Positions 1 to 49,800 of a DNA stretch of 64,000 bases are shown here, in pieces; within the stretch, counting starts at the first letter, position 1; each line of letters begins with the position of its first letter. The notes beneath the pieces are model-generated. The model searched no databases. It was not told where the DNA came from and saw nothing but the letters and a program-made list of their open reading frames with translations. The translations under genes and the position numbers were made by a program. Source of the DNA: Cyclina sinensis (Eukaryota > Mollusca > Bivalvia > Venerida > Veneridae); assembly GCA_012932295.1 (NCBI GenBank), contig JAAONU010000004.1, forward strand, positions 5,589,030 to 5,653,029, given 5' to 3'.

Positions 1-672
1 CAGTACAGTGTATGGTGAATATGCATGTCGTTTTTGCGTTATATTCGGTGTAGAAAGGCCAATATACTCCCCGCTTCATATGTGTTACACAGACCGTATA
101 TAGCTAATGGTATGAGAGAAAATAACGCGATTTCCGAATAATTGGCTCGAATTTCGTGAGAAAATGTTCGTGTTAAAATTGATTTTTGATTATAAAAGTC
201 AAGAACACAAAAGTATTCAACTATCAATTCATGTTGACGTAACGCTGTTTTCTGCAACAGATTTGTTTAAACAACATTGATTGCCTGCACGTTGTAATGG
301 TTAAGCTAAATTTTGAAAAAAAAATTAATTGAAAAAAAAATACGATAACAAACTAAAAAAATTAATTGAAAAAAAAAATACGATTAGCAAACTAATAAAA
401 AAATATGATAATATATATTAGTAAAAATAAAATATGTCACAATAAGTTTATGGAATGTTCCGTTTTATTATTTTTTATTCGTAAAAAAATGAGTGGGATT
501 TTTTTTTCTTTCGTATAAAAAATGATATTCTTCGAAATCGTTTCAGCATTAAGAGAGATAAATAAATACCGCAAAATAGATTATCAGCAACCGACTTTAT
601 TTTGTTTGCACACGGATGTAGTTACTAAGAGCTTAAAAGCTGGTTTAAAATGAGAAAACAGACAATCTGAGA
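1..672. other. AT-rich non-coding stretch
   Basis: Nothing coding is supported here. The stretch is strongly A/T biased, with several A-runs and T-runs around 310-520, and no open frame has credible composition. It lies downstream of the stem-loop gene that reads leftward from 1273. Confidence 0.6.
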
Positions 673-683
673 GGTTTCCTTTC
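673..683 (-). promoter_or_regulatory. Histone downstream element (U7-type) of gene A
   Basis: On the minus strand, 15 nt after the stem-loop, there is a purine-rich GAAAGGAAACC. This is the position and composition expected of the histone downstream element that pairs with U7 snRNA during 3' cleavage of replication-dependent histone pre-mRNA. The match is by position and purine content only; U7 complementarity was not tested. Confidence 0.6.
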
Positions 684-697
684 AGAAATATATGGGT

Positions 698-713
698 GGC
701 CCTGAAAAGGGCC
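698..713 (-). terminator. Histone-type 3' stem-loop of gene A
   Basis: The minus strand reads GGCCCTTTTCAGGGCC: a perfect 6-bp stem with a TTTC loop, followed directly by ACCCA. This matches the canonical metazoan histone mRNA stem-loop bound by SLBP. It starts 30 nt after the stop codon of the gene at 743-1273, the usual spacing for a histone 3' UTR. Cleavage would be expected just after ACCCA, near 693, without polyadenylation. Confidence 0.9.
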
Positions 714-742
714 GTTGGATTGCGCTGTTAGTACAGCACTTG

Positions 743-1273
743 TTAGTTATCTGTCCCGTCGTCTGCCTCCATATCTTCTTCTTCCGGTTCGTCTGCGACC
801 TCGTACTCATTATCCGACTCTTCTGGATCGGACGCGGTGACAATATGTACGTTCTGGTCGTAAAGCTCCTTCCTAAGTTCGGCAATTTCCTCAGCCCTGT
901 CTCTGGCATATTCGTAGAACATGTTGCGAACACCCTCAACGGCTGCGAGTCGAATGCGCAAATTGTAGCGGAAGCTCTTGAAACCTTCAGCACGGGCGCT
1001 TTTGTAACGTTTTGTGAGTCCTCGGATTTTATCGTTGAGAAGAATGACATGTTCGCAGGATCGAACCAGCTTTCTCTCAGTATTCATGAGCTGACGGGTT
1101 TTGCTAAGCCGGAGGCTTGTCATCTCCACAACACGCTCGTTCGCTCCAGAAGTTCTGTGATGTCTGATAAAATTGCTGGCATTGCGAGAAACAACTCTGT
1201 CGGCGTTCCCGGCGCTTGCAGACCCGGCGTTGGCCCTGGAAGCTAAAGCACGTGATCTCGATCGTGTGATCAT
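743..1273 (-). CDS. Unrecognised 176-residue protein with histone-type mRNA 3' end (gene A)
   Basis: I do not recognise the family. The frame is open upstream to 1321, but that start would be GTG, so the ATG at 1273 (MITRSRSRAL...) is chosen. Residues 1-60 are basic and rich in Arg, Ser and Ala, like a nucleic-acid-binding tail. Residues 65-145 are predicted mostly helical and charged. The last 30 residues are highly acidic (EEED and DDGTDN motifs). A core at about residues 82-140, with YNLRIR and EGVRNMF, aligns without gaps to gene B at 5835-6242: by hand count 27 of 59 positions are identical. No intron is needed, and a canonical histone stem-loop follows 30 nt after the stop. No histone fold, HMG box or protamine repeat is evident. 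I infer a nuclear, S-phase-expressed protein; an acidic-tailed chaperone-like role is only a guess from composition. Confidence 0.8.
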   Translation of the reverse strand: MITRSRSRALASRANAGSASAGNADRVVSRNASNFIRHHRTSGANERVVEMTSLRLSKTRQLMNTERKLVRSCEHVILLNDKIRGLTKRYKSARAEGFKSFRYNLRIRLAAVEGVRNMFYEYARDRAEEIAELRKELYDQNVHIVTASDPEESDNEYEVADEPEEEDMEADDGTDN

Positions 1274-1299
1274 GACTGTATAATTGCTGTATCGCAATT

Positions 1300-1332
1300 G
1301 AATGCTGAAACCTAAATCCACTGATATTTATT
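1300..1332 (-). promoter_or_regulatory. Candidate core promoter of gene A (TATA-like and initiator)
   Basis: The minus strand has AATAAATATC (plus 1323-1332) as a TATA-like box, and TTTCAGCATTC ending near 1300 as a possible initiator about 25-30 nt downstream. Gene B has the same arrangement (TATATAAAT, then TTCACACATTC), which supports a short-leader, TATA-driven promoter for both. Confidence 0.4.
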
Positions 1333-1380
1333 CCAAATGATGCTGCCACGGTGTTAATACGGTTATAATCATTAAACACA

Positions 1381-1395
1381 GAGATTCTGTGTATT
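1381..1395. repeat. 15-bp motif shared by both stem-loop gene promoters, copy 1
   Basis: GAGATTCTGTGTATT occurs here, about 110 bp upstream of the gene A start, and again exactly at 5594-5608, upstream of gene B. Both copies are in the same plus orientation, so they are opposite relative to their genes. The flanks here extend it into a near palindrome (ACACAGAGATTCTGTGT). Confidence 0.5.
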
Positions 1396-3049
1396 AAGTC
1401 CGAGATGCCACTTCAAATACTGACAAGAAAATTTGTAGAGTTACAAATTAACTAACTAAAAATGTCAACGTATGAACATACGAGTAGATTTAATTTCAAA
1501 AATTGGGTTATAATTATGTCAATCGTAATTTGTATGTATTTCACGGATATTGTCTACTCAGTAACATGAGAGGTGTCAAATTGACACGTGCGCATGGATG
1601 GCATGTCGGTAGAGTAGGTGATTAGATTTTAAATTTTGACACCTAAGTAAAATATGATTAGATAATAGGATTAACTTGTTTGATCAAAAGTAAAAATATG
1701 TGTGAAAATGGCATCTGTTTCTTTTGTGTCCGCTATGGAAGTAATAATGTTATTCACATTTTTGTCTAATAGGGTGTTTTGCAATTGAAAAGTAAAACAT
1801 GTAAAAAATACTCGTGAATAGGTGTAATTTATGTCTCCTCATATAAAATATCCATAAATTAAAAAGAATATTTATTACATTGGTTCTCTTTTCTGTTTTG
1901 AGAATTGTTTATTCAAATTTTTAATAAAACAGTCTTAGAAAAGAAATATAAGTTCAAGAGTGCAAATCATTACGCATTTACGATAAATCACAGACGTTTA
2001 CGATAGTTTTAACTTTTTTTCCTTTTTACTTTTTTTAAGGTTCTAAAGTCGGGTTAAAAAATGAAATGATTATACCATAGTATCACGGCGCAAGCAAGGT
2101 AGACAAAACCGACGAGCCACTTCTGATCTTAAGAAAAACAAATAAAAAGAATAAATACTTTAAAAGTAAGTTTTTTATATCAGAAACCGGATTATTTCTG
2201 GTGAAGCTCCAAGGATATTGTGTAGATTTTTTTCAAAATCCACCAAAAAGTCAAATGTCAGAATTACATAAAATAATATCACATTTTTTTTCTTTTCGAG
2301 GAAATTGAAAACGTTTTATTCACAGTTAATACATATATCTAGATCTTTTACTGTTTAACCACGACAGGTCGCTCTTTTAAATTTGAAAAGTCAAAAGTTT
2401 CCTTTACCTATACAAAAAAATAATAAAATTGAAAACTTAGACAATTTTCTTATGATGAAAATAGGTAAGAGACAGTCAAGAAAACGTTTTAATTCCAAAC
2501 AACATCTGCGCTAAACCACGCAGCATCAGATCAATTTCTTATATATTCGTATTTATCTCATTTTACTGTTTTTCAAAATTTACTTGATTTTTCGCCCTAA
2601 TATGTCTAGATGTTATATTTTTTCTTTGGCAAATGTGTTATTCATATACTTTATACAGATGATCAACTTTATCTGGTTCAAATCCAAAAGAATAATAGAT
2701 CTTGTTCCTGTCTTATACTTTGAAACAAACGTTATCGTTTTTTTTTTCTTTAAAATTATTTCTTCAAATACACAGAAATTGTTTTTTTTTTAATGTTTTC
2801 AGAAGCGGTCTAACTTTTTGCGTTTTTCGTTTCGTAGTTCTGATATCTCTGATCTGAAGTACGTGCCTGTAATTTTGATGTCTAAAGAAAAGGTGACTAC
2901 CAAAGTTTAAAGATTTATTAATTTTTATTATTTGTAACCCCTACATATATTTATTTTGAATAAATTCTAGACTCGTACTTTTTCTGACAACTGTTTCATA
3001 AACCATGTACAGTATTTCAGCCATGTTTGTATGATTGTGTCTGTGTGTT

Positions 3050-3103
3050 GGGGCGGGGAGGGGGGAGGTGGAGGGGGTTTTGGAGAAAGAGAGGGAGGGG
3101 GGT
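3050..3103 (+). other. G-rich tract with G-quadruplex potential
   Basis: Several runs of four to six G (GGGGCGGGGAGGGGGG and onward), followed by a purine-rich stretch, stand out from AT-rich surroundings. More than four G-runs with 1-3 nt loops meet the usual quadruplex pattern. No gene start is seen beside it. Confidence 0.6.
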
Positions 3104-3830
3104 CACAAAGGCATGATTCGACACTGTGGGACTTCAATAAAAGGGTCAGTCTTTTTTCTAATGAAACATTACACAATGTGTGTAATTCAAATTATTGTAA
3201 AAATTCAAATAGAAGTTTTGTTGCTACATCTAAAGTTGCAACCACATTGTTTACCAATAACATTTCAGATCTTTACCCTATGAAATCAAACATTCCATAG
3301 AACGGGTTTTTGTTTGCCATGTGACCTACTATCTAAATGACATGAGGAGGTGCCCTTCCGGAATGTTTGTCCCAACCTTATATAAAACCGAAATATATAT
3401 TTATTACGTCAAGACACTATGGTGACCAAATTGTACTGAAAAGGCAAGGTCGTATTAAGCACAAATTTATTATTCACAATTATTTGCAAACAGTTATTAT
3501 TTCAAATTTAAGTCATAGTGAAAAAAACAAATATTGTCAAAAATCTTATCAACGCCAAAACGAAGATCATTCTCAGAGAAAGAACAAAATCATTTATTTG
3601 TACAAAACAGGCGATTTTAAGACAATGCAGACGTTTAAAATGTGAAGACATCTGTCACTTATCGTCTGTTTATCTATCTGAGTTTATTTATCGTATGTAC
3701 CGGTTGCTCTTATAACCGACGCCCCCAACAGAGTTTAGTTAGTTTAGTTTATGGGGGACACATATGCAAGCCAAATATATATTTTTAGTACTTAAATGCA
3801 TGTATTGCTCATATTCATTTTTTGATATAT

Positions 3831-4086
3831 CACGTGTGAAGGGGTTGATACAAGAGGTGTAGATCCAAGCGTTTATCCTATAGCAATACATCCGGAATAC
3901 ATTTGGCTACCGGGCCTTTTAAAGGGTCACCTATCAGACACGTGTTACATGAAACACGTGCACTAATGACTCTGTTCTGCCCACAGGTCTGGACGCTTAA
4001 AACTTTCCGCGATATAGTCAACGGGTCCCATTTTTTTTTCTTCCAGGATGTATGTACTTATTGACACGTGTTTAGTATGACACGTG
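3831..4086. promoter_or_regulatory. Cluster of five CACGTG palindromes (E-box type)
   Basis: CACGTG occurs at 3831-3836, 3939-3944, 3955-3960, 4065-4070 and 4081-4086. Three are preceded by GA or TGA. This 6-mer is the binding site of MYC/MAX/USF/CLOCK-type bHLH factors. It lies 1.7-2.8 kb from the two stem-loop genes. A regulatory role is inferred from clustering alone. Confidence 0.35.
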
Positions 4087-4540
4087 TTGACACTATCCCG
4101 TGACGTACACTAGTTAATGAAATAAACCCATTTCTCCATTTTGATAACAAGAAATGTTTTTAACTCAGTGCAAATCATTCTTTTGACCAAAAAATCATTG
4201 TTGTTGTTGTTGTAAATATCAAATGATTTTGATGTCTGCTATGACTTCAAAATAAATGAGACTAGATTAGCAAATCAAAGTTTCACATTTCAAAGTTCAG
4301 TTTTAGTACAATCTCTGGGGTGTTTTTTTTTTCACCTCTGGAATTTTGCTGTATCATTGAACTAACTGCTTCTTTCAAAGTAAAGAAAAGAATGCTGCTA
4401 TTTATTGGTGTAATTATTTATGTACATGACAGGTGCGTGTTTTTATGGCTACAGATAACTTTTAAATGATTCATACAATTTTGAAGCAAATATTACAAAT
4501 TGCAAAATAGCACATGGTTTGTTCGCTATAAAAACAGATT

Positions 4541-4760
4541 TAACTATGTTATATCATTGATGTAACGATGTGATATAATTGATATAACGATGTGATATCA
4601 TTGATATGACGATATTATATCAATATCATAACTATATGATATCATTGATATAACTACATGATATCATTTACAAGACGATTTATATCAATGATACCGTGAT
4701 ATGATACCAATAATATAACGATATGATACCAATGATATAATTATGTGATATAAATGCATC
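4541..4760. repeat. Degenerate 22-bp AT-rich minisatellite
   Basis: About ten diverged units of roughly 22-23 bp on the pattern GATGTGATATCATTGATATAAC. Each unit contains self-complementary ATATCA/TGATAT segments, so single strands could form many short hairpins. Confidence 0.75.
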
Positions 4761-5593
4761 ACGTTGCATACTGATGTAGGTTTTGATATGATATCAAGAT
4801 GTATCAATATTATTTTCTGCCTGTACTTTTATAAAGAATCTGTGCGGTAAAGCACGTGTTTCTATTTACTGAATTAAGGCATTCTGATTCGAAATCAAAA
4901 CACTTTTTACACACTGGTAAAAGATACTTATAAATTTTTTTTAGCCTTTTTTTCATTCATTTTTTGCAGAAGTATTTGTTGTTGTCTCTGCATTGAAATA
5001 TTGTACTGCATAATGTTTTAATTTTTCAAAGTAGTTGTGGCAACCATCAAAGTTTTGCATTCACCTCAGTACTGGCAGCGGAAAAAAGATAACAAAAAAT
5101 ACCACAGCGAATAAATGTTAAAAACTCGTCTGCTAAAATGTTTATAATTTCGTCTGTTGATGAGTACAACATCAGTAGGTTTCAAATATCTAGCGAGATA
5201 CCTATGACGTAACTGTTATTGCTGATTGACATTTTTTCTCTACAAAAGGGAGTAATTTGTCTGTCTAGAAAAATAGATCAACACAATTTGTATCTAAAAC
5301 ATTTTATTACTACAATCGTATGTAAAGCGAGTATTAGAAAAATTAAACTTGTTTGCAACAAAAAAGTTTTTTTATAGACGCAAAGGGGATAGCTCACTAG
5401 GTGAAAAACATTTTCCGGTGTGACGCATCTTTTTCATAAAGTATACATGTACTATTCTTCACCGCCTGCGATTAATTTTTATGTTTTTTGGAAGACTAAA
5501 CTTTATTAACTTATTCAGTTACCAAATTTTTAAGGCAACATGGAACTTGTGTATTTAAACAAAGTGAATGTCACAATGAAATGTCATTTCAAT

Positions 5594-5608
5594 GAGATTC
5601 TGTGTATT
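5594..5608. repeat. 15-bp motif shared by both stem-loop gene promoters, copy 2
   Basis: An exact second copy of GAGATTCTGTGTATT, about 230 bp upstream of the gene B start. See the copy at 1381-1395. Confidence 0.5.
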
Positions 5609-5791
5609 GTCAGAAAGTGTCAAGTGTAATTCAGATCGAATACACAGGCACGTGTGTCTGCAAGTTGGTATCTCGTTTAAATCGCAGACGATATTTTATG
5701 TACCGCTAGACAGACCCCTAGCACGCGCCAGCAAATCGTCTGCTACAGATGTCATTTTTTTCCTGTTTGAGCACGGATAGGAAAACAGAAA

Positions 5792-5800
5792 TATATAAAT
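5792..5800 (+). promoter_or_regulatory. TATA box of gene B
   Basis: TATATAAAT lies 35 nt before the ATG at 5835. TTCACACATTC, about 27 nt downstream (5817-5827), is a plausible initiator, giving a very short 5' leader, as is common for histone genes. Confidence 0.6.
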
Positions 5801-5834
5801 AATCTGAAGATATAGCTTCACACATTCTAACAAA

Positions 5835-6242
5835 ATGTCTGATAGAGCGTTGTTCAACCATCTTCTCTGGCAAATAGAATTTAAATATTTTCAAGCTAAA
5901 ACCCAGGTCACTGTCATGGACGCAGAAGTTCAAAACCTCCTCAGTCGGTACGACTATGCATGTGAGAAAGGTCACAAAAGCACGTGCTACAATCTGCGAA
6001 TGCGCATTTCCATCACGGAGGGCGTTCGGTACATGTTTGTACAGTACATGAAGAAACTTGCCGCGGACATAGCATTCCTTCGGCGCGTTTTGTTTGATCA
6101 GGTTGTTGTTGTCGTTGACGAGAATGAATATGATTATCATGATAGTCTCAGCCATTCGATAGACGAAGACGATGATGACAACGATAGTGATGAGGATTCG
6201 TTCACAGATGTTGAAATGGAAATCGAGGAGATGCTTGCATGA
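5835..6242 (+). CDS. Unrecognised 135-residue protein with histone-type mRNA 3' end (gene B)
   Basis: Paralogue of gene A (743-1273), and not a family I recognise. The ATG has a good context (AACAAAATG) and lies 35 nt after a TATA box. Residues 1-30 form a short N-terminus that lacks gene A's basic tail. Residues 31-90 are the conserved helical core, with CYNLRMR and TEGVRYMF. Residues 95-132 are very acidic (EDDDDNDSDED, then EMEIEE). The shared architecture is therefore a helical core plus an acidic tail. The gene has a single exon, with a perfect histone stem-loop 41 nt after the stop. It is transcribed away from gene A. Function is unknown; replication-linked expression is inferred from the 3' end. 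The two copies differ in N-terminal length and share under half their core residues, so the duplication is old. Confidence 0.8.
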   Translation: MSDRALFNHLLWQIEFKYFQAKTQVTVMDAEVQNLLSRYDYACEKGHKSTCYNLRMRISITEGVRYMFVQYMKKLAADIAFLRRVLFDQVVVVVDENEYDYHDSLSHSIDEDDDDNDSDEDSFTDVEMEIEEMLA

Positions 6243-6282
6243 CGTCATCAGGGCCATCCATAAAATAGCAACCAAACTAAAA

Positions 6283-6298
6283 GGTCCTTTTCAGGACC
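6283..6298 (+). terminator. Histone-type 3' stem-loop of gene B
   Basis: GGTCCTTTTCAGGACC forms a perfect 6-bp stem with a TTTC loop and is followed by ACCCA at 6299-6303. Compared with the gene A stem-loop, stem positions 3 and 14 change together and pairing is kept. This is the covariation expected of a functional hairpin. Confidence 0.9.
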
Positions 6299-6310
6299 AC
6301 CCAAGTATCT

Positions 6311-6320
6311 CGAAAGAGGT
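6311..6320 (+). promoter_or_regulatory. Histone downstream element (U7-type) of gene B
   Basis: CGAAAGAGGT starts 13 nt after the stem-loop, at the spacing and with the purine content expected of the U7 snRNA pairing site. It completes the histone-type 3' processing signal. Confidence 0.6.
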
Positions 6321-7728
6321 CTTTCTCAGAATTGTCAGAATATCAATAAAAATTACATATGTAGATTATTCTAGTATCTATATATTATTCTTTTTCATGG
6401 AAAAGCAATTCTTATGTCACTATTCTAGTTCAGCATGCCGTATGCTTAAAAATGTTTCAATATTTCCGTTACCAAATCTCTGTATTTTCCACTCAACCCT
6501 AACTTACTAACTGCAAATGATTAGTGTCTTGTTTTTTTATTGTTAATCACTTTTTAAATTTAGTTTAGTATCTTAAAAATTCAAAACGTGTTTTTTGTTT
6601 GTTATTGTTTGTTGTTGTTGTTGCTGTTGTTAATTAATTGCTATTTTGTCACTTTTGTACGCATGTTGTCAGGAATAGTAGTGTTAAGAGACACATAACG
6701 TCTAGATTTCCTTGCATTAATGAACATCTTACTTTAAAAAAAGTCAGGAAACAAGAGTTATTACATCTAGCTGCTAAGAATTCATTGTATCAGAAGGTTT
6801 TATCCCTGAAGGCCCTCTGTGAAGAACTTCTGTTAGAAGAGCGCGTACTTAAACGACGCTCATTTCATTTTCATTTCACATCAAAGAAAGAAAATGTCTT
6901 TTTTTCTAAATAAATGATAACATGGGCGTGTCGACATTTTACATTTTTTTTATTCACTGAAAAATGTTTTCATTTCCTGAAAATGTAAAATCTTAAGTTT
7001 TAACTTAACAAAACCCCTTGTCATCTTGCTTTATAGCCAGATTTAGACTCAATTTCAAACACATAACCGTTCATGGTGACTGCCCATTTGGAATTCTGAC
7101 CAAAACACGTCAAAAAAAAAAAAGAAAGCTTATAAGAGAAGACCCTTAGAAATCTAATGATCCATTTCTGATTCTATTGCATTCTCTTAAAAGATGTCGC
7201 TAAGCTTAGACTACAAGTAAATAATAAGTAATAACTTATAAATGTAATACGCATAAAAATGTAATTAAGAAATGATATAACTTGGTCGGAATTATTTGAT
7301 TTTACTGTTTACCCTCCCTCCCTCTATCTTTCTCAATATATTCACTATCTCTTCTCTCAGATAAATAACATTTGGAATTGCGTTTCCAAAGGAAAACACA
7401 AGTCTGGAGAGGCTCCAGATACTTCTAGGAAAAACAATAAATCCTAATATTACGGAACGGTTTCCATAGCAACGGCGAAGCATCTTATTTAATGAAATAA
7501 ACAATAAGGTGTTTTGACAGTTACGTTCAATCAATTTATCTTGATACGAGACAGGGTGTGGGGAACTGTTAACTTTGAACAGACGAGGAAATAGATTTGT
7601 TTTTAATGCAATTTTAACCCACAGAGCAGGGACAAATGTTTCTTTTCCAAAATTTTTGTCAAGTTACTGGCATTCATTTTGAATTGTAAATGAAACTCGT
7701 CTGTATAAAGATAGACAGATAGATTTCT

Positions 7729-13609: not shown

Positions 13610-16600
13610 CTGAACCAAATGAGCATTTTTTTAGAAACAGATGTATATTATTTACATCAAAAACTGTCAGAAACTGATACCATCAGTATATGTTTGTCTA
13701 AATCTGTATTTTATTAGAAAGTGAAAAATGTTTTGACCAAATACGCATTATTTATTTAACCAAATAACATGTTGGTACCCAATTTACATTCTTTGTGAAA
13801 GTGGTATATGTTTTTACCGAATGTGCATTTCATGAGAAACTTGTACATGTTTGTACCCCGTATGTATGCTTTGTGAAACTGGCATAGGCTTGTTCCTGAT
13901 GTGCATTCTTTAAAAAAAAAATCTGGAATGTCTACACCCGATCAGTATTCTTTCAGAAACTGGCATATGTTTATATCTGAAGCCCATCCTTTGAGAAACT
14001 GGCATACGTTTGTTCCTGATGTGTATTCTTTGAGAAACTGGCATATGTATGTACCAAATGTGCATTCTTTGAGAAACTTGAATATGTTTGTTCCTGATGT
14101 GCATTCTTTGAAAAACTCGCATATGTTTGTTCCTGATGTGCATTCTTTGAGAAACTGGCACATGTTTGTTCCTGATGTGCATTCTTTCCGAAACTCGCAT
14201 ATGTTTGTTCCTGATGTGTATTCTTTGAGAAACTGGCATATGTATGTACCAAATGTGCATTCTTTGAGAAGCTGGCATATGTTTGTTCCTGATGTGCATT
14301 CTTTGAAAAACTCGCATATGTTTGTTCCTGATGTGCTTTCTTTGAGAAACTGGCACATGTTTGTTCTTGATGTGCATTCTTTCGGAAACTCGCATATGTT
14401 TGTTCCTGATGTGCATTCTTTGGGAAACTCGCATATGTTTGTTCCTGGTGTGCATTCTTTGGGAAACTCGCATATGTTTGTTCCTGATGTGCATTCGTTG
14501 CAAAACTCGCAAATGTTTGTTCCTGATGTGCATTCTTTGAGAAACTCGCATATGTTTGTTCCTGATGTGCATTCTTTGAGAAACTGGCACATGTTTGTTC
14601 CTGATGTGCATTCTTTGAGAAACTGGCATATGTTTGTTCCTGATGTGCATTCTTTGAAAAACTCGCATATGTTTATGTCCAGTGTGCCGTCTTTGAAAAA
14701 CTCGCATATGTTTGTTCCTGATGTGCATTCTTTAAGAAACTCGCATATGTTTGTTCCTGATGTGCATTCTTTGAGAAACTCGCATATGTTTGTTCCTGAT
14801 GTGCATTCTTTGAAAAACTCGCATATGTTTGTTCCTGATGTGCATTCTTTAAAAAACTCGCATATGTTTGTTCCTGATGTGCATTCTTTGAAAAACTCGC
14901 ATATGTTTGTTCCTGATGTGCATTCTTTGGGAAACTCGCATATGTTTGTTCCTGATGTGTATTCTTTGAAAAACTCGCATATGTTTGTTCCTGATGTGCA
15001 TTCTTTGAGAAACTCACATATGTTTGTTCCTGATGTGCATTCTTTGGGAAACTCGCATAAAATTGTTCCTGATGTGCATTCTTTGGAAAACTCGCATATG
15101 TTTGTTCCTGAAGTGCATTCTTTGGGAAACTCGCATATGTTTGTTCCTGGTGTGTATTCTTTGGAAAACTCGCATATGTTTGTTCCTGATGTGCATTCTT
15201 TGAGAAACTGGCATATGTATGTACCAAATGTGCATTCTTTGGGAAACTCGCATATGTTTGTTCCTGATGTGCATTCTTTGGGAAACTCGCATATGTTTGT
15301 TCATAATGTGCATTCTTTGAGAAACCGGCATATGTTTGTTCCTGGTGTGCATTGTTATGAAAAACTTGCATATGTTTGTTCCTGATGTGCATTCTTTGAG
15401 AAACTCGCATATGTTTGTTCCTGATGTGCATTCTTTGGGAAACTCGCATATGTTTGTTCTTGGTGTGCATTCTTTAAGAAACTCGCATATGTTTGTTCCT
15501 GATGTGCATTCTTTGATAAACTGGCATATGTTTGTTCCTGCTGTGCTTTCTTTGAGAAGCTGGCATATGTTTGTTCCTGATGTGCATTCTTTGAAAAACT
15601 CGTATATGTTTGTTCCTGATGTGCATTCTTTGAGAATCTGGCATATGTTTGTTCCTGATATGCATTCTTTGAGAAACTCGCATATGTTTGTTCCTGATGT
15701 GCATTCTTTGAGAAACTGGCATATGTTTGTTCCTGATGTGCATTCTTTGAGATACTCGCATATGTTTGTTCCTGATGTGCATTCTTTGAGAAACTCGCAT
15801 ATGTTTGTTCCTGATATGCATTCTTTGAAAAAATCGCATATGTTTGTTCCTGATGTGCATTCTTTGAAAAACTCGCATATGTTTGTTCCTGATGTGCATT
15901 CTTTGGGAAACTCGCATATGTTTGTTCTTGATGTGCATTCTTTGAGAAACTCGCATATGTTTGTTCCTGATGTGCATTCTTTGAGAAACTCGCATATGTT
16001 TGTTCCTGATATGCATTCTTTGAAAAACTCGCATATGTTTGTTCCTGATGTGCATTCTTTGAGAAACTCGCATATGTTTGTTCTTGATGTGCATTCTTTG
16101 AGAAACTCGCATATGTTTGTTCCTGATGTGCATTCTTTGAGAAACTCGCATATGTTTGTTCCTGATATGCATTCTTTGAAAAACTCGCATATGTTTGTTC
16201 CTGATGTGCATTCTTTGAAAAACTCGCATATGTTTGTTCCTGATGTGCATTCTTTAGGGAAACTCGCATATGTTTGTTCCTGATGTGCATTCTTTGGGAA
16301 ACTCGCATATGTTTGTTCCTGATGTGCATTCTTTGGGAAATTGGCATATAATTGTTCCTGATGTGCATTCTTTGGGAAACCCGCATTTATTTGTTCCTGA
16401 TGTGCATTCTTTGGGAAACTGGCATATGTTTGTTCCTGATGTGCATTCTTTGATAAACTCGCATAGTTTTGTTCCTGATGTGCATTCTTTGATAAACTCG
16501 CATATGTTTGTTCCTGATGTGCATTCTTTGAGAAAACTCGCATATGTTAGTATCTGAAGCCTGATGTGCATTCTTTGAAAAACTCGCATATGTTTGTTCC

Positions 16601-18482
16601 TGATGTGCATTCTTTAGGAAACTCGCATATGTTTGTTCATGATGTGCATTCTTTGAGAAACTCGCATATGTTTGTTCCTGATGTGCATTCTTTAAGAAAC
16701 TCGCTTATGTTAGTATCTGAAGCCTGATGTGCATTCTTTGAAAAACTCGCATATGTTTGTTCCTGATGTGCATTCTTTGGGAAACTCGCATATGTTTGTT
16801 CCTGATGTGCATTCTTTGAGAAACTCGCGTATGTTTGTTCCTGATGTGCATTCTTTGAGAAACTCGCATATGTTTGTTCCTGATGTGCATTTTTGAGAAA
16901 CTCGCATTTGTTTGTATCTAAAGCCCATCCTTTGAGAAACTCGCATATGTTTGTTCCTGGTGTGCATTCTTTGAAAAACTGGCATATGTTTGTTCCTGAT
17001 GTGCATTCTTTGATAAACGCGCATATGTTTGTTCCTGATGTGCATTCTTTGAGAAACTGGCACATGTTTGTTCCTGATGTGCATTCTTTGAGAAACTGGC
17101 ACATGTTTGTTCCTGATGTGCATTCTTTGAAAAACTCGCATATGTTTATTTCCAGTGTGCCGTCTTTGAGAAACTCGCATATGTTTGTTCCTGATGTGCA
17201 TTCTTTGAGAAACTCGCATATGTTTGTTCCTGATGTGCATTCTTTGAAAAACTGGCATATGTTTGTTCCTGATGTGCATTCTTTGAGAAACTTGCATATG
17301 TTTGTTCCTGATGTGCATTCTTTGAAAAACTGGCATATGTTTGTTCCTGATGTGCATTCTTTGAGAAACTTGCATATGTTTGTTCCTGATGTGCATTCTT
17401 TGAAAAACTGGCATATGTTTATTTCCAGTGTGCCGTCTTTGAGAAACTCGCATATGTTTGTTCCTGATGTGCATTCTTTGAGAAACTCGCATATGTTTGT
17501 TCCTGATGTGCATTCTTTGAAAAACTGGCATATGTTTGTTCCTGATGTGCATTCTTTGAGAAACTTGCATATGTTTGTTCCTGATGTGCATTCTTTGAAA
17601 AACTGGCATATGTTTATCTCCAGTGTGCATTTTTTTCGACATTTTTGTATGCATGTACCAAATGTGCATTCTTTGAGAAACTTAAATATGCTTGTTCCTG
17701 ATGTGCATTCTTTGAGAAAGTCGAACATGTTTATATCCGATGTGCATTATTGGCGAAACCAGCAAATGATCGAACTATATGTTCATTCTTTGAGAAACTT
17801 GAATATGTTTTTACCCGGTGTGCATTCTTTGAAAAACAGACATTTGTTTTTACCCGAGTTGCATTTTTTGAGAAATTTGTTTGTTCCAAAAAAGTATCCT
17901 TTGAGAAACTTGCATATGTATGTCACCCAATGTGCATTCCATGAGAAACTTGTACATTTTTGTACCCTGTGTGCATCTTTTGAGAAACTTTCATATGTTT
18001 GTATCTGATGTGCATTCTTTGAGAAACTTTCAAATGTTTGTGCCCGATGTGCATTATTTGAGAAACTTTCATCCGTTTGTATCTGATGTGCATTCTTTGA
18101 GTAGCTGACATATGTTTTTAACCCGATGTGCATGCTTTGAGTAGCTGATATATCTTTGTACACGATGTAATACTATGTTCATTGAGTTTTCATATATGTT
18201 TCAAATGTGCATTTTCTAAGAAGCTGACAACTTTTTGTACCCGATGTGCATTCTTTGAGAAATTTTCATGTAAAAGTAACATATGTTTGTACCTGATGTA
18301 TATGTTTTGAGAAGCTGGCATATGTTTTTACCCGCTGTACATTCTTTGAAAGATTGGCATGTGTTTGTACACAGTGTTCATTCTTTGAGAAACTGGCATG
18401 TGTTTGTACACCATGTGCTTTCTTTGAGAAACTGGAAAGTGTTTGTACCAAACGGAATTCTTTGAAAAACTTGCATTTTGAC
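13610..18482 (+). repeat. 39-bp satellite, family 1
   Basis: About 125 tandem units of 39 bp with a core such as CATATGTTTGTTCCTGATGT followed by GCATTCTTTGAGAAACTCG. Units are highly alike in the centre (about 14.4-17.6 kb) and degrade towards both edges, the pattern left by unequal exchange. Variant units containing CCAGTGTGCCGTC recur at 14.68, 17.15 and 17.43 kb. The last two are about 273 bp (7 units) apart, so a higher-order repeat is present locally. Because 39 is divisible by three and the consensus has no stops in several frames, long reading frames exist on both strands (up to 509 codons). They are not treated as genes. Confidence 0.9.
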
Positions 18483-21768: not shown

Positions 21769-24700
21769 TTACCCAATGTGCATTCTTGTAGACACAGGTA
21801 TATATTGGTACCTAATGTGCATTCTTGTAGACACAGGTATATATTGGTACCTAATGTGCAATCTTGTAGACACAGGTATATATTGGTATCTAATGTGCAT
21901 TCTTGTAGACACAGGTATATATTGGTATCTAATGTGCATTCTTGTAGACACAGGTATATATTGGTACCTAATATGCATTCTTGAAGACACAGGTATATGT
22001 TTGTACTCAATCTGGATTCTTGAAGACACAGGTATATGTTTGTACTCAATCTGCATTCTTGTAGACACAGGTATATATTGGTACCTAATGTGCATTCTTG
22101 TAGACACAGGTATATGTTTGTACTTAATCTGCATTCTTGAAGACACAGGTATATGTTTGTACTTAATCTGCATTCTTGAAGACACAGGTATATATTGGTA
22201 CCTAATGTGCATTCTTGTAGACACAGGTATATATTGGTACCTAATGTGCATTCTTGTAGACACAGGTATATATTGGTTTCTAATGTGCATTCTTGTAGAC
22301 ACAGGTATATATTGGTACCTAATGTGCATTCTTGTAGACACAGGTATATATTGGTACCTAATGTGTATTCTTGTAGACACAGGTATATATTGGTACCTAA
22401 TGTGCATTCTTGTAGACACAGGTATATATTGGTATCTAATGTGCATTCTTGAAGACACAGGTATATATTGGTATCTAATGTGCATTCTTGTAGACACAGG
22501 TATATATTGGTACCTAATGTGCATTCTTGAAGACACAGGTATATGTTTGTACTCAATCTGGATTCTTGAAGACACAGGTATATGTTTGTACTCAATCTGC
22601 ATTCTTGTAGACACAGGTATATATTGGTACCTAATGTGCATTCTTGTAGACACAGGTATATATTGGTACCTAATGTGCATTCTTGTAGACACATGTATAT
22701 ATTGGTTTCTAATGTGCATTCTTGTAGACACAGGTATATATTGGTACCTTATGTGCATTCTTGTAGACACAGGTATATATTGGTACCTAATGTGCATTCT
22801 TGTAGACACAGGTATATATTGGTACCTAATGTGCATTCTTGTAGACACAGGTATATATTGGTACCTAATGTGCAATCTTGTAGACACAGGTATAATTGGT
22901 ATCTAATGTGCATTCTTGTAGACACAGGTATATATTGGTACCTAATATGCATTCTTGAAGACACAGGTATATGTTTGTACTCAATCTGGATTCTTGAAGA
23001 CACAGGTATATGTTTGTACTCAATCTGCATTCTTGTAGACACAGGTATATATTGGTACCTAATGTGCATTCTTGTAGACACAGGTATATATTGGTACCTA
23101 ATGTGCAATCTTGTAGACACAGTATATTGGTATCTAATGTGCATTCTTGTAGACACAGGTATATATTGGTATCTAATGTGCATTCTTGTATACACAGGTA
23201 TATATTGGTACCTAATATGCATTCTTGAAGACACAGGTATATGTTTGTACTCAATCTGGATTCTTGAAGACACAGGTATATGTTTGTACTCAATCTGCAT
23301 TCTTGTAGACACAGGTATATATTGGTACCTAATGTGCATTCTTGTAGACACAGGTATATGTTTGTACTTAATCTGCATTCTTGAAGACACAGGTATATAT
23401 TGGTACCTAATGTGCATTCTTGTAGACACAGGTATATATTGGTACCTAATGTGCATTCTTGTAGACACAGGTATATATTGGTACCTAATGTGCATTCTTG
23501 TAGACACAGGTATATATTGGTACCTAATGTGCATTCTTGTAGACACAGGTATATATTGGTACCTAATGTGCATTCTTGTAGACACAGGTATATATTGGTA
23601 CCTAATGTGCATTCTTGTAGACACAGGTATATATTGGTATCTAATGTGCATTCTTGAAGACACAGGTATATATTGGTATCTAATGTGCATTCTTGTAGAC
23701 ACAGGTATGTATTGGTACCTAATGTGCATTCTTGAAGACACAGGTATATGTTTGTACTCAATCTGGATTCTTGAAGACACAGGTATATGTTTGTACTCAA
23801 TCTGCATTCTTGTAGACACAGGTATATATTGGTACCTAATGTGCATTCTTGTAGACACAGGTATATATTGGTACCTAATGTGCATTCTTGTAGACACATG
23901 TATATATTGGTTTCTAATGTGCATTCTTGTAGACACAGGTATATATTGGTACCTTATGTGCATTCTTGTAGACACAGGTATATATTGGTACCTAATGTGC
24001 ATTCTTGTAGACACAGGTATATATTGGTACCTAATGTGCATTCTTGTAGACACAGGTATATATTGGTACCTAATGTGCAATCTTGTAGACACAGGTATAT
24101 ATTGGTATCTAATGTGCATTCTTGTAGACACAGGTATATATTGGTATCTAATGTGCATTCTTGTAGACACAGGTATATATTGGTACCTAATATGCATTCT
24201 TGAAGACACAGGTATATGTTTGTACTCAATCTGGATTCTTGAAGACACAGGTATATGTTTGTACTCAATCTGCATTCTTGTAGACACAGGTATATATTGG
24301 TACCTAATGTGCATTCTTGTAGACACAGGTATATATTGGTACCTAATGTGCATTCTTGTAGACACATGTATATATTGGTTTCTAATGTGCATTCTTGTAG
24401 ACACAGGTATATATTGGTACCTAATGTGCATTCTTGTAGACACAGGTATATATTGGTACCTAATGTGCATTCTTGTAGACACAGGTATATATTGGTACCT
24501 AATGTGCATTCTTGTAGACACAGGTATATATTGGAACCTAATGTGCATTCTTGTAGACACAGGTATATATTGGTACCTAATGTGCATTCTTGTAGACACA
24601 GGTATATATTGGTGTCTAATGTGCATTCTTGTAGACACAGGTATATATTGGTACCTAATGTGCATTCTTGTAGACACAGGTATATATTGGTTCCTAATGT

Positions 24701-25256
24701 GCATTCTTGTAGACAAAGGTATATATTGGTTCCTAATGTGCATTCTTGTAGACACAGGTATATATTGGTTCCTAATGTGCATTCTTGTAGACACAGGTAT
24801 ATATTGGTACCTAATGTGCATTCTTGTAGACACAGGTATATATTGGTACCTAATGTGCATTCTTGTAGACACAGGTATATATTGGTACCTAATGTGCATT
24901 CTTGTAGACACAGGTATATATTGGTACCTAATGTGCATTTGTAGACACAGGTATATATTGGTAGCTAATGTGCATTCTTGTAGACACAGGTATATATTGG
25001 TACCTAATGTGCATTCTTGTAGACACAGGTATATATTGGTATCTAATGTGCATTCTTGTAGACACAGGTATATATTGGTGTCTAATGTGCATTCTTGTAG
25101 ACACAGGTATATATTGGTACCTAATGTGTATTCTTGTAGACACAGGTATATATTGGTACCTAATGTGCATTCTTGTAGACACAGGTATATATTGGTACCT
25201 AATGTGCATTCTTGTAGACACAGGTATATATTCGTACCTAATGTGCATTCTTTCAG
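21769..25256 (+). repeat. 39-bp satellite, family 3 with higher-order structure
   Basis: About 89 highly similar 39-bp units of the form TGTAGACACAGGTATATATT, then GGTACCTAATGTGCATTCT. A marker pair of variant units (GAAGACACAGGTATATGTTTG with TCAATCTGGATTC) recurs near 22.01, 22.56, 22.99, 23.27, 23.76 and 24.23 kb. Several spacings are close to whole multiples of 39 (about 14, 11 and 12 units), so blocks of units have been copied together. The final unit ends in TTCTTTCAGAAACTG, which resembles family 1. Open frames of up to 922 codons here are period artefacts. Confidence 0.9.
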
Positions 25257-34798: not shown

Positions 34799-37700
34799 CT
34801 GGAAAGAACAGAAATATAAATTTTAGAAAACTAAACATACATGCGTCAGTAGAATGTTTGTTTCCCGTTTAAAATTATCAAGATGCATGATGGGAAAGAA
34901 AAAATGCCGAAATTCCCGCTATTTTTTATATTATTTACATCTAAAGCCCGAGACAGAGTATCTAAAAGACTTCTGAATAATATACTGTTTATTTCATTCC
35001 GACTTACTTCCAGTCTTTCTAGAATATTCAAAGAAATCAAAGTATTTTTGCAAGACAATTTGTATCAGCAATTATAATTTCAGGTGCTTCATGACAAACA
35101 GTGGAAATTTCTGCTCAACTTAAGATAACGATTTGTCTCATTTAAAGCAGAAGTTTAGGAATGTGAAAATGTCCTTAGAAAAAACATGACAGAATAAGTC
35201 TGTCAATAACTAGCCTTAAATGTTTTTTTTTTATCTCAGAAAAATCAACTATAATGATTATGTTCATCACGAATATTAATCACTAAATGTACCTTCAACA
35301 CTTTTTATTCCAAAGCGTTCAATATTTGGATCAATGTCACCATTAAAGGCAGGCAAGACATTGGGCTGAGGGCTGTCAGGTGGGGTGGGGGCAAATCCAC
35401 CAATGTCTGGCACATCATTATCGTATTCTACCCCATTCTCCTCATCCCCGCTGACTGCTTCATCCGAGTCGGTATTCGGTGGGTTTAATTCCGGTCCCTC
35501 TGGATCTATTCGGTCACAATCGTGAATTCCCACAATTAAACTGTAATCCATAAGGTGTAAACTTGCCAAAAACTGCAAGAAAGTAACAAGACTTATAACA
35601 TCAAGTTTCAATGATGTAAAAATAAAAGGAAAAATGAATCTGATCAGAGGATTATTTTGGCACAAAAATCAATCTTATTTCTTACAGAAAGCAACACACT
35701 AATATGTTTTTTAGTCTAACTTCTTCTTTGCATTCTATATTCATGATTCAAGGTACTACGTTTGCTTCACTTAAAATATAAGAATTTGCTTTGACAATAA
35801 ATAATGTCATATTGACAGCGTTTGACAGATACTGTAAGTGGCAACTGTCGAACGGGCAAACTTCCTACATGTTTACAAAGATTAAATCACCTTCTAAGGT
35901 AAAGATGTTGCAAAAACAAACCAAACCCTAAACACATTCCAAAGGGGACAACAAAAAATGACTACAGATTCTACAAAAACATTTAGTAATCACCTCAACA
36001 TCCTTGGTTAAATGTTCTATCAATGTCACCTTGGCTTCCGCTCCAATGTGTATCTTTCCACCGTCGGTGAGGAAATCATTGTCTTTAAATGTAGGCAGGT
36101 CTTTTGCCTGAAAATAGATACTTCCTCGTTTATTTAAATCACCTCTGCGTGTCTAATACTACTTTTAATCAGCAGAAGATTTTATTTCTTTCTTTTTATA
36201 TCTCTTCTTTCTGTCATGGTCATGATAGCGGCTTCTCCTGACCGCCAACGGTTTCCAGATACCCCTACTGTTATGTGGAAGCTTTTAACAGCAGCAAGTC
36301 CCTCCTGTAAAAATGTCAATAAATGACGACTACCATTGTTAATAACGATTGATAACATGTCTCATTCTCATAAAACAATCAGTGGCTTATAAACTGACAC
36401 AGCAAATTGATCTAATAAGATCGAAAGAATTCATATGAAAGGTAAATGTTCACTTGTTTTGAAATCATAAGAGAGCTCTTTAGAATGTCTTACCTTTTCT
36501 TTGTCACTAGCACATCTGTCTACCGTTGAACCCTGAAAATAAAACAAAGTTTAGCTACATTAGAACAAGGCTCAAACACATGAATTCTTCAACCGTTTTG
36601 TTCACTTTTCACCAAACCTTGCAGACTTGAACTGTTACCAATAGAGAAAGTGAAAAGTCATAGGTCATTATCATTGCCATGACAAGTTATCAGTCCTACT
36701 TCAGAAATTTTGCAAACTGATATAATTCAATGAACAACAGTGAGATTAATCAACAATATGGTCAATTCTTAAACTTTTAAGGTTGTTTCACTATCAGATG
36801 ATTGACTGTTAGAGATATCTTTTGTAAATTTTTATCATACTCCGACTGCTAGAATAAACAATGCATCTATAACATTTCTTATCATTATTTTCATCTCATG
36901 GATGTCATACCTCTCAACATCAAAAAACTGTTACCACCAGCATCTATAAGGTCAAAACAAAGTCTAAAAAACTCAACAAAGTTACCAATTAGAAATTTGT
37001 CTTGGGATGAATATACTTCATCTATATTTTAAAATGCAATGAAAATCAAATGATCTACTAGACAGAATTACTGACTGAATTTTCTTATTTCCAAGAAAAT
37101 TAGCTGAATTTATGTCTCTGTTTATGGCTTTTTCTTGCAGTTTTATCATACAGTCTAGATGAAAGTAGCCCAGATAAAACAAAAATCACCCTTGTAAGGG
37201 TCTAGTTTATATTGTAAGAATGACATTTATCTATGGGGGGAAAAAAGGACATGGACGCACCTAATCTTTTTTCTGTACTTAAATCTAATAACAGAAGGGC
37301 ATAAACTAAGCCAGTTAAGTCTACATAATGTCATTCCTTACCAAACGCACCCGTTACAATCAAGACAGCCTGATGAAAATATCTGCCCTAATTTATACGC
37401 GACAATAAAATAAGCCATCTCCTTGGCATACACAAACACTGTTCTAACTGGCTAAAAATTACAAACTTCATAGATACGATCTGTCAAACCTGTAATTTCT
37501 CATCAATGCTGAATAACATTATCTTCCATGAATAAATATCCACATTCCACTGATAATACAATATTTCTATCAGTTGTACATAATGTGAATTTAAGTGAAT
37601 TTAGAAATGTCCATTCATCATAGTGTATTTGCTGTTGCTTCTCAAATACAGATAAGTAAAGTTTGATAGCTCTGTGATTCAAAGCCTAGTCAAAGAAAAC

Positions 37701-46800: not shown

Positions 46801-49800
46801 GTTTTGTTTTATTCCATCCAGAAAAGAAGAAAAATCATGGATTTAAATAGAACCTACGTAAAATGAACACAACAATTTCATGCTACAAGTAGATTCTCTA
46901 AACTCATAACCGGTTCCTTTAATAGGGCAGCTGTACCTAATGTTGCTTATAGGCTTAAATATAAGCTAAGTGAAATCTTCACACTATGTTCCAAGGATTT
47001 CCTTCTGGAAGCCATTTAGTACAGAAGCACCAAAAGGTGTTGACATATCACTGAGTGAGGGTAAACGATATTGCTATTTCCAGAAAACAAGCAAAAACAC
47101 TCCTCTAAAAAGATTCCTTTAATGGCCTCTCTAAAATGTCAAATGCTAACAAATTTCCAAACAGAGCACTTTGCTGACATGCAAACAAGTGATTTAACTT
47201 TGGAGATCAAACAACTCCATTCACATGAGAGACATATTAAGTCTTTCATGGCCAGTGTTAATTTGTGGCTGTATTATCTTAGAAAAACAGACTGCTACTT
47301 AGATCCTCTAGAAAAAGAAGTCAAAGATTTTCCCCACAAAGATCACCGCGCTAAAATGTATACCAAGTTTTAGCAGCATAGAAAATCTAGGCTACTACTA
47401 ACATCCCTGAGAAAAATCTAAAGCAATGTTTGGGGGGCAAGAATTATGAACAAATGACTGCTCTTTTGTAAGCAAAAACCTAAGGTATTTACACTTATTC
47501 ATGCAAACCTCTGGATAAAAAAGTAGCCTTCACCTCCTTAACTGCTTCTGGACCCTAATTTTACCCCTTCAGCATTACACTTCTATACCAGTCTATTTCA
47601 CTGTAGCTAAAGGAAGAAAATGCCAGTCAAATACAAAGTCCCTTTTGTTATCCTTTTTTCCATAAGATAAAAACATGCGCTAGGTTCAAATGAATGCCAT
47701 GCCCCTGGGGGCATTGACCTTTGACCCCATATCCTCTAAGTGTGTCTGGCGGGTAGAGCTCATCAAGGTGCATGCACCTGCAAAGTTTGGAAGCTGTAGG
47801 TGGAAGAACTTCCGTATTATGGTGAAGGATAAGTTTTGTGACCAACAAACAAACAGACTAACAAACAGACAGACCAAAAACAAAATCCTCCCTCCAGGGG
47901 CATAGTAAAAAGAATTTGTTAAGATTTAGGTTTTACTTCATCAACAAAACCAGTCATCAAAAACCATTCACCAGTTTCAATTTTCTATAAGCTTTTATTA
48001 CGGAAAAAAAATCTTAACAAGTACCATAGCAGTCATGAGTGACTATGGATTTCATTTTTATAGTGTAACAATAAATTCTTTAAAAGAAATTCACTTTGTC
48101 AATTATTGCAAAGGAAGTCCATCCTTGTATCAAAAGCAGTTAAAATGAACTTTGGTCTTTTAGCTAAGTGAACAATGCTAACTTATAAACCAATTAAAAC
48201 AGATGAATGATATATTTCTTTGTAAAAGAAATGTTGATTCAATATCATGCCTATTGAATAAGACTTCAATCATACTTTGTCTGAAGAATTAAGACTGTTA
48301 CTCTGCAAGTCTATCTTGTCACCTATTTCATAACTGCCAGTACCATTTACATTGATTACCTGTGTGGGGCATAAACTATATACAAGACCTTTGCATGGGG
48401 GTAAAGAAAATTATATAAACATCTGCAGGACATTACAAGTAACAAAATTAGGTCCAATCACTTGATATAGTTTACTTGTATCAACTGGTTATATTGCATG
48501 CTAAATAACTGTCAATACTGCTGGATGAACAACTGTCAATATTGCAGGCTGAACAACTGACAATACTGCATGTTGAACAACTGTCAATACTGCCAGCTGA
48601 ACAACTGTCAATATTGCTGGCTGTACAATCGTCAATATTGCAGGCTGAACAACTGACAATATTGCATGCTGAACAACTGTCAATATTGCAGGCTATACAA
48701 CTGTCAATATTACATGCTGAACAAGTGTCAATATTGCAGCTGAACAACTGTCAATACTGCCAGCTGAACAACTGTCAATATTGCAGGCTAAACAACTGTC
48801 AATACTGCCAGCTGAACAACTGTCAATATTGCAGGCTAAACAACTGTCAATATTACATGCTGAACAACTGTCAATATTGCAGGCTGAACAACTGTCAATA
48901 TTACATGCTGAACAACTGTCAATATTACATGCTGAACAAGTGTCAATATTGCAGGCTAAACAACTGTCAATACTGCCAGCTGAACAACTGTCAATATTGC
49001 AGGCTAAACAACTGTCAATACTGCCAGCTGAACAACTGTCAATATTGCAGGCTAAACAACTGTCAATATTACATGCTGAACAAGTGTCAATATTGCAGGC
49101 TAAACAACTGTCAATACTGCCAGCTGAACAACTGTCAATATTGCAGGCTAAACAACTGTCAATACTGCCAGCTGAACAACTGTCAATATTGCAGGCTAAA
49201 CAACTGCCAATACTGCCAGCTGAACAACCGTCAATATTGCAGGCTAAACAACTGTCAATATTACAAGCTGAACAACTGTCAATACTGCCAGCTGAACAAC
49301 TGTCAATACTGCCAGCTAAACAACTGTCAATATTGCAGCTGAACAACTGTCAATACTGCCAGCTGAACAACTGTCAATATTGCAGGTTAAACAACTGTCA
49401 ATACTGCCAGCTAAACAACCGTCAATGTTGCAGGCTAAACAACTGTCAATATTACAAGCTGAACAACTGTCAATACTGCCAGCTGAACAACTGTCAATAC
49501 TGCCAGCTAAACAACTGTCAATATTACATGCTGAACAACTGTCAATATTGCAGGCTAAACAACTGTCAATACTGCTGGATGAACAACTGTCAATATTGCA
49601 AACTGAACAACTGACAATACTGCATGTTGAACAACTGTCAATATTACAGGCTAAACAACTGTCAATATTACATGCTGAACAACTGTCAATATTGCAGGCT
49701 GAACAACTGTCAATATTACATGCTGAACAACTGTCAATACTGCCAGCTGAACAACTGTAAATATTGCAGGCTGAACAACTGTCAATATTGCAGGCTAAAC

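Follow-up and report, generated by a model that had tools for sequence, protein, structure and literature searches.

A divergent pair of apparently non-histone paralogues with complete histone-type 3' ends in the bivalve Cyclina sinensis

We identified two intronless genes, here called para1 and para2, within a 64,000-nucleotide stretch of Cyclina sinensis DNA (assembly GCA_012932295.1, contig JAAONU010000004.1, positions 5,589,030 to 5,653,029; the whole stretch is termed the window). Each gene is followed by a complete histone-type mRNA 3' end, and neither product matched a histone model in Pfam. In the open reading frame (ORF) list of the window, the two genes are transcribed in opposite directions and point apart. 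On balance, we think it somewhat probable that they are paralogues of a non-histone family whose mRNAs would be cut by the U7 complex and the stem-loop-binding protein (SLBP), would be made in S phase or stored in the egg together with histone mRNAs, and would encode proteins that handle histones or chromatin. A wider proposal is put forward more tentatively, as a possibility a little short of even: the whole family may have entered the histone mRNA regulon, with U7/SLBP cleavage, a rise in S phase and a lineage-specific histone-handling or chromatin component supplied in proportion to new histones. The 3' end is of a known kind, and the kind of gene found under it is new. A preliminary description of this DNA had reported a divergent intronless pair, each gene with a perfect 6-bp stem, a TTTC loop, ACCCA and a purine-rich element, and the ORFs, the sequence and the covariance-model scores all bear this out (Table 1).

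Both elements belong to the Rfam family Histone3 (RF00032), since each scored at or above the gathering threshold of 34 bits and each has a stem-loop soon after the stop codon, ACCCA and a purine-rich element. The alignments of both span model positions 1-46 of 46, and no other Rfam match in the window reached the gathering level. The stem begins 29 nucleotides (nt) after the stop codon in para1 and 40 nt after it in para2 by our count; the earlier figure was 30-41 nt. The two stems differ at pair 3 alone, which is C-G in para1 and T-A in para2, and this is the single compensated base pair that had been noticed before. The window has exactly two instances of a perfect 6-bp stem with a TTTH loop and AC after it, namely the two elements described here, compared with 17 occurrences in total in 150 Markov-simulated windows and at least two per window in just one of the 150. 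A looser 15-nt pattern allowing two mismatches was not significant in the window (4 occurrences against 3.45 expected, a count reached in 45 of 100 shuffles), and therefore we base the case for the 3' ends on the covariance-model scores, on the perfect stems and on their placement after paralogous ORFs. Positions 666-716 and 6280-6330 form a 51-nt inverted repeat, 71% complementary, which corresponds to the stem and downstream element of both genes.

Two smaller features were seen beside these elements. An extra hairpin (GTGCTGT...ACAGCGC) lies at 722-739 on the minus strand, between the para1 stop codon and the para1 stem-loop, and a 71-nt stretch with both para1 hairpins folds better than 200 of 200 shuffles. 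Directly after the para2 stop codon, positions 6248-6262 read TCAGGGCCATCCATA, which agrees at 14 of 15 positions with the 3' half of the para1 stem-loop plus ACCCA and is perhaps the remnant of an older stem-loop.

Table 1. Features of the window, in window coordinates.
Feature	Position	Strand	Description
para1	743-1273	-	intronless ORF, 176 residues
para1 stem-loop	698-713	-	GGCCCT-TTTC-AGGGCC; perfect 6-bp stem
para1 ACCCA	693-697	-	predicted cleavage site; from sequence
para1 purine-rich downstream element	666-692	-	TATATTTCTGAAAGGAAACCTCTCAGA; from sequence
para1 match to Rfam Histone3 (RF00032)	674-718	-	38.8 bits
para2	5835-6242	+	intronless ORF, 135 residues
para2 stem-loop	6283-6298	+	GGTCCT-TTTC-AGGACC; perfect 6-bp stem
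para2 ACCCA	6299-6303	+	predicted cleavage site; from sequence
para2 purine-rich downstream element	6304-6330	+	AGTATCTCGAAAGAGGTCTTTCTCAGA; from sequence
para2 match to Rfam Histone3 (RF00032)	6278-6322	+	34.4 bits
TATA-like sequence	5792-5801	+	TATATAAATA; about 33 nt 5' of the para2 ATG; by eye from sequence
Densest CACGTG (E-box) cluster	3831-4086	.	5 of 8 intergenic sites
PIP5K-like ORF	35279-35668	-	25.7 bits, E 8.2e-06; just below cut-off
PIP5K-like ORF	52193-52564	-	40.7 bits, E 2.2e-10; above cut-off
Long tandem arrays	13769-18161; 21770-25252; 48491-50479		39-nt and 24-nt units

The two proteins align without gaps at 31 of 79 identical residues (BLASTP, E 7e-17) and, judged by this similarity, are paralogues, as had been proposed. 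The para1 protein consists of a basic N-terminal arm (MITRSRSR...), a hairpin core at residues 42-138 and an acidic C-terminal tail with a net charge of -16. In para2, the core occupies residues 3-87 and the acidic tail has a net charge of -20, so the acidic tail described earlier is present on both. AlphaFold2 models of para1 gave predicted local distance difference test (pLDDT) values of 95-98 in 10-residue blocks from 51 to 140, with helices at 42-96 and 99-138; for para2, the values were 94-98 in blocks from 11 to 90, with helices at 3-45 and 48-87. The core of both is predicted with high confidence to form an antiparallel hairpin of two helices, about 90 residues long; the acidic tail that comes after it is predicted to be disordered. 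A third core helix is absent from both models, which, as judged from the helix boundaries, are neither histone fold nor winged helix.

Neither para1 nor para2 had a Pfam match above cut-off. No histone model was found among their matches at E<=10, where the HMMER filters drop most matches above 0.1, or among the matches of 77 family members at E<=0.1. Sub-threshold matches of these 77 members included HR1 (9/77), Sld5/GINS (5/77) and PUFD (1/77) among others, and NCBIfam returned weak bacterial matches, far under cut-off, for three of six proteins. The preliminary description had seen no histone fold, in agreement with the Pfam searches and the predicted hairpins, and it had allowed that the core might prove by profile to be a divergent known histone; no Pfam histone profile matched.

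In their gene structure, para1 and para2 resemble the replication-dependent histone genes of metazoans, being intronless and having a stop codon followed by a 6-bp stem with a 4-nt loop, ACCCA and a purine-rich element that together pass the RF00032 cut-off. They differ from those genes in their proteins, which have no Pfam histone match and carry a predicted helical hairpin and an acidic tail. Acidic histone chaperones of the NAP1 family likewise have a helical domain with an acidic stretch after it. However, homology with that family is not established, the para1 and para2 proteins are much smaller, and the match to NAP1L1, over helix 2 and the acidic tail, was non-significant (best E 0.041). 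Genes of the NAP1 family are not known to carry 3' ends of the histone type. The hairpins of the LSD1 tower, the ING dimerisation domain, Snf7 and the SerRS arm showed 2-18% identity, with many unrelated families tied, and this likeness is a common arrangement and not evidence of kinship.

A profile search found 335 proteins at E<=10. Among the 120 matches listed, of which the weakest had an E value of 7.6e-37, the organisms named were the imparidentian bivalves Mya arenaria, Dreissena polymorpha and Mactra antiquata. The family is large, well conserved and apparently undescribed. Relatives P0004 (Mactra antiquata) and P0003 share 79-80% identity with para1 across 57% of its length, and the one close relative found for para2, P0121, shares 58% identity across 93%. 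From this, para2 seems to be a conserved line of its own rather than a decayed copy. In a tree of 110 cores and 86 columns, in which bootstrap support was unsettled and the midpoint root served for drawing only, we used two groups with 100/100 support: one of 87 rows, and the pair of para2 and P0121. The remainder, including para1, was not resolved. Groups A (26 members), B (95) and C (2) were assigned by hand after the tree; their median fractions of aspartate and glutamate in the tail are 0.5, 0.29 and 0.38, respectively, and the 95 proteins of group B have a median length of 110 residues.

Members of the family are multicopy, with clusters of 135 and 102 member sequences among the matches listed. 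Also among these matches, the longest contigs are equally long within P0023/P0062, within P0019/P0058 and within P0060/P0093/P0096, which suggests that the gene copies of such relatives are clustered. Two annotated Mya arenaria proteins, P0022 and P0023, contain three and two cores per chain, respectively, which reflects either genuine fusion or the joining of gene models over a tandem array. Several JGI members, P0005, P0075 and P0088 among others, are labelled 'mitochondrial fission protein ELM1', a label that is likely misapplied. None of 164 pattern matches in viral contigs and none of 90 in prokaryote genome contigs was confirmed as a relative, in searches from which records very near the window were possibly excluded.

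The 3' ends of relatives were read by back-translating the tails of ORFs that continue beyond the usual stop. In 39 proteins the stretch after the core exceeds 25 residues, and 18 of these proteins have non-acidic tails (less than 25% aspartate and glutamate in the last 20 residues), and these were slid ungapped, with all codon choices open, over both strands of the window. The best match fell at the para1 or para2 stem-loop for nine of the 18 (P0021, P0028, P0029, P0030, P0044, P0110, P0112, P0114 and P0115), compared with 3 of 1800 shuffles. The nine are not independent cases, as P0110, P0112, P0114 and P0115 form one line and P0021 and P0028 are near kin. All six stem pairs were allowed in 8 of the 39 tails, every one of them within the 18, and in 59 of 3900 shuffles; five or more pairs were allowed in 13 of the 39, against 420 of 3900 shuffles. 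The eight include P0013, which is equivocal, reaching six pairs only via free codon positions and with the ACC after the stem not fixed. Seven of the 18 tails were compared with each 3' end, in 14 uncorrected comparisons: for the para1 3' end, none of 200 shuffles reached the score of any of the seven; for that of para2, this was so in four of seven, and shuffles reached the score of P0044 once, of P0112 42 times and of P0098 29 times in 200.

The tail of P0121 can be written as GGTCCTTTTAAGGACCACCAA, which is the para2 stem, and its score against the para2 3' end was 39.8, where the best of 200 shuffles reached 26.4. Beyond the stem, it can be written on as TCTCGAAAGA, which also occurs in the para2 downstream element. 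The tails of P0030 and P0096 are compatible with identical letters in two reading frames. As far as these back-translations can be read, the histone-type 3' end is likely common to the 87-row group and to the para2 line in other species; in the para1 line, it was shown in this window alone. The preliminary description had named a lack of homologues with the stem-loop as a result that would speak against it, and such homologues seem to exist. Its central suggestion, a non-histone family under histone-type control, stands to the extent that the elements are real, the family is conserved without a histone match, and homologues seemingly carry the element.

Several observations weigh against our interpretation. 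The 3' ends of relatives come from protein letters and not from DNA, and the stem-loop was not ranked first in nine of the 18 tails. For P0121, its own coding tail ranked first and the para2 and para1 stem-loops third and fourth; for P0096 and P0089 the stem-loop was third and fourth, and for P0013, P0035, P0037, P0098, P0103 and P0120 it was absent from the top four. The sole read-through tail in the para1-like group is the equivocal P0013. One broken pair is implied in P0029, P0030, P0089, P0096 and P0098, and in these five it is the fourth pair, C-A or A-C (pairs numbered by hand). AATAAA lies 3' of both elements, at 6345-6350 (+) and 596-601 (-), so that polyadenylation is possible, in a region that is AT-rich. 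Finally, a helical hairpin is a common arrangement, and therefore the fold says little about function.

In histone mRNAs, a stem-loop with ACCCA and a downstream element is the signal for cleavage by the U7 complex and SLBP, and ties the level of an mRNA to S phase. Because a complete histone-type 3' end is present, it is likely that the para1 and para2 mRNAs would be cut in this way and not polyadenylated. By analogy with histone mRNAs, they may be made chiefly in S phase, or stored in the egg, alongside those of histones. The hairpin, rich in arginine, tyrosine and asparagine, could bind a partner, and the acidic tail could hold basic histones or compete with DNA. The proteins may then be small partners in handling histones or chromatin in S phase or in early embryos, needed in proportion to new chromatin; this, we infer, is the simplest reading of a basic hairpin with an acidic tail whose supply would follow that of new chromatin. 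In the excerpts of PMC2781718 and PMC12803260 on which we draw, the stem-loop/SLBP system is treated as histone-only, and the latter, a 2026 preprint, describes the mRNAs of replication-dependent histones as the only ones in metazoans that are not polyadenylated. Bivalve histones use the stem-loop, since its typical form is reported in Lucina pectinata histone mRNAs in an excerpt of PMC6210712, which mentions purine-rich elements detected nearby in some only. We found no report of non-histone genes with histone stem-loops in bivalves, in a literature search that most subscription journals lay outside. Were a conserved non-histone family to carry the full element, the histone regulon would be open to other genes, and candidates would be at hand for proteins whose supply has to keep pace with new chromatin.

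The main rival to a histone-handling role is that the histone-type 3' end is indeed used, but for the storage and translation of a maternal protein of the oocyte or early embryo unrelated to chromatin, for example a coiled-coil hairpin that binds RNA or belongs to the cytoskeleton. This egg-storage reading, with the same mRNA control, is a serious if unlikely alternative; against it, a basic N-terminal arm with an acidic tail is frequent in chromatin and chaperone proteins, and acidic tails recur across the family. It is rather improbable that the stem-loops are passive relics of an origin in or near a histone repeat, with the working mRNAs polyadenylated downstream. The downstream AATAAA motifs, the broken pair in five relatives' tails and the partial copy at 6248-6262 would fit such relics, but neither stem has a mismatch and the one difference between them is compensated, the tails of several lineages again allow the letters of the stem, ACC and downstream element, and the window holds no further histone 3' element (histone ORFs were not separately searched).

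Two readings concern the nature of the proteins themselves. Descent from a multicopy mobile element or a virus is highly improbable: the clusters of 135 and 102 sequences point that way, as does the inverted repeat flanking the pair, although this is the two 3' ends themselves, while the searches of viral and prokaryote contigs yielded no relative and the 10 other window ORFs scanned held neither a transposase nor a viral domain (no systematic search was made for terminal repeats). The least probable reading is that para1 and para2 are highly diverged histones or linker histones and that their 3' end is ordinary. Their small size, basic core, lack of introns and 3' end are what such genes would show; set against this are the absence of histone models from the matches of the 77 members, the acidic tail, and the prediction of two long helices in place of the short-long-short histone fold or a winged helix.

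The start codons of para1 and para2 are separated by 4.6 kb, and therefore a common promoter is not evident. Between the genes (1274-5834), CACGTG occurs 8 times against 0.5 expected and a maximum of 4 in 1000 Markov simulations; 10 of the 12 sites in the whole window fall in 1249-5986, and two pairs, 3939/3955 and 4065/4081, are spaced at 16 nt. These E-boxes possibly reflect control of basic helix-loop-helix type common to both genes.

In the rest of the window, both PIP5K-like ORFs are exon-like and likely belong to a single kinase gene beside the pair. Because their unit length is a multiple of three, the long tandem arrays have several open frames on each strand.

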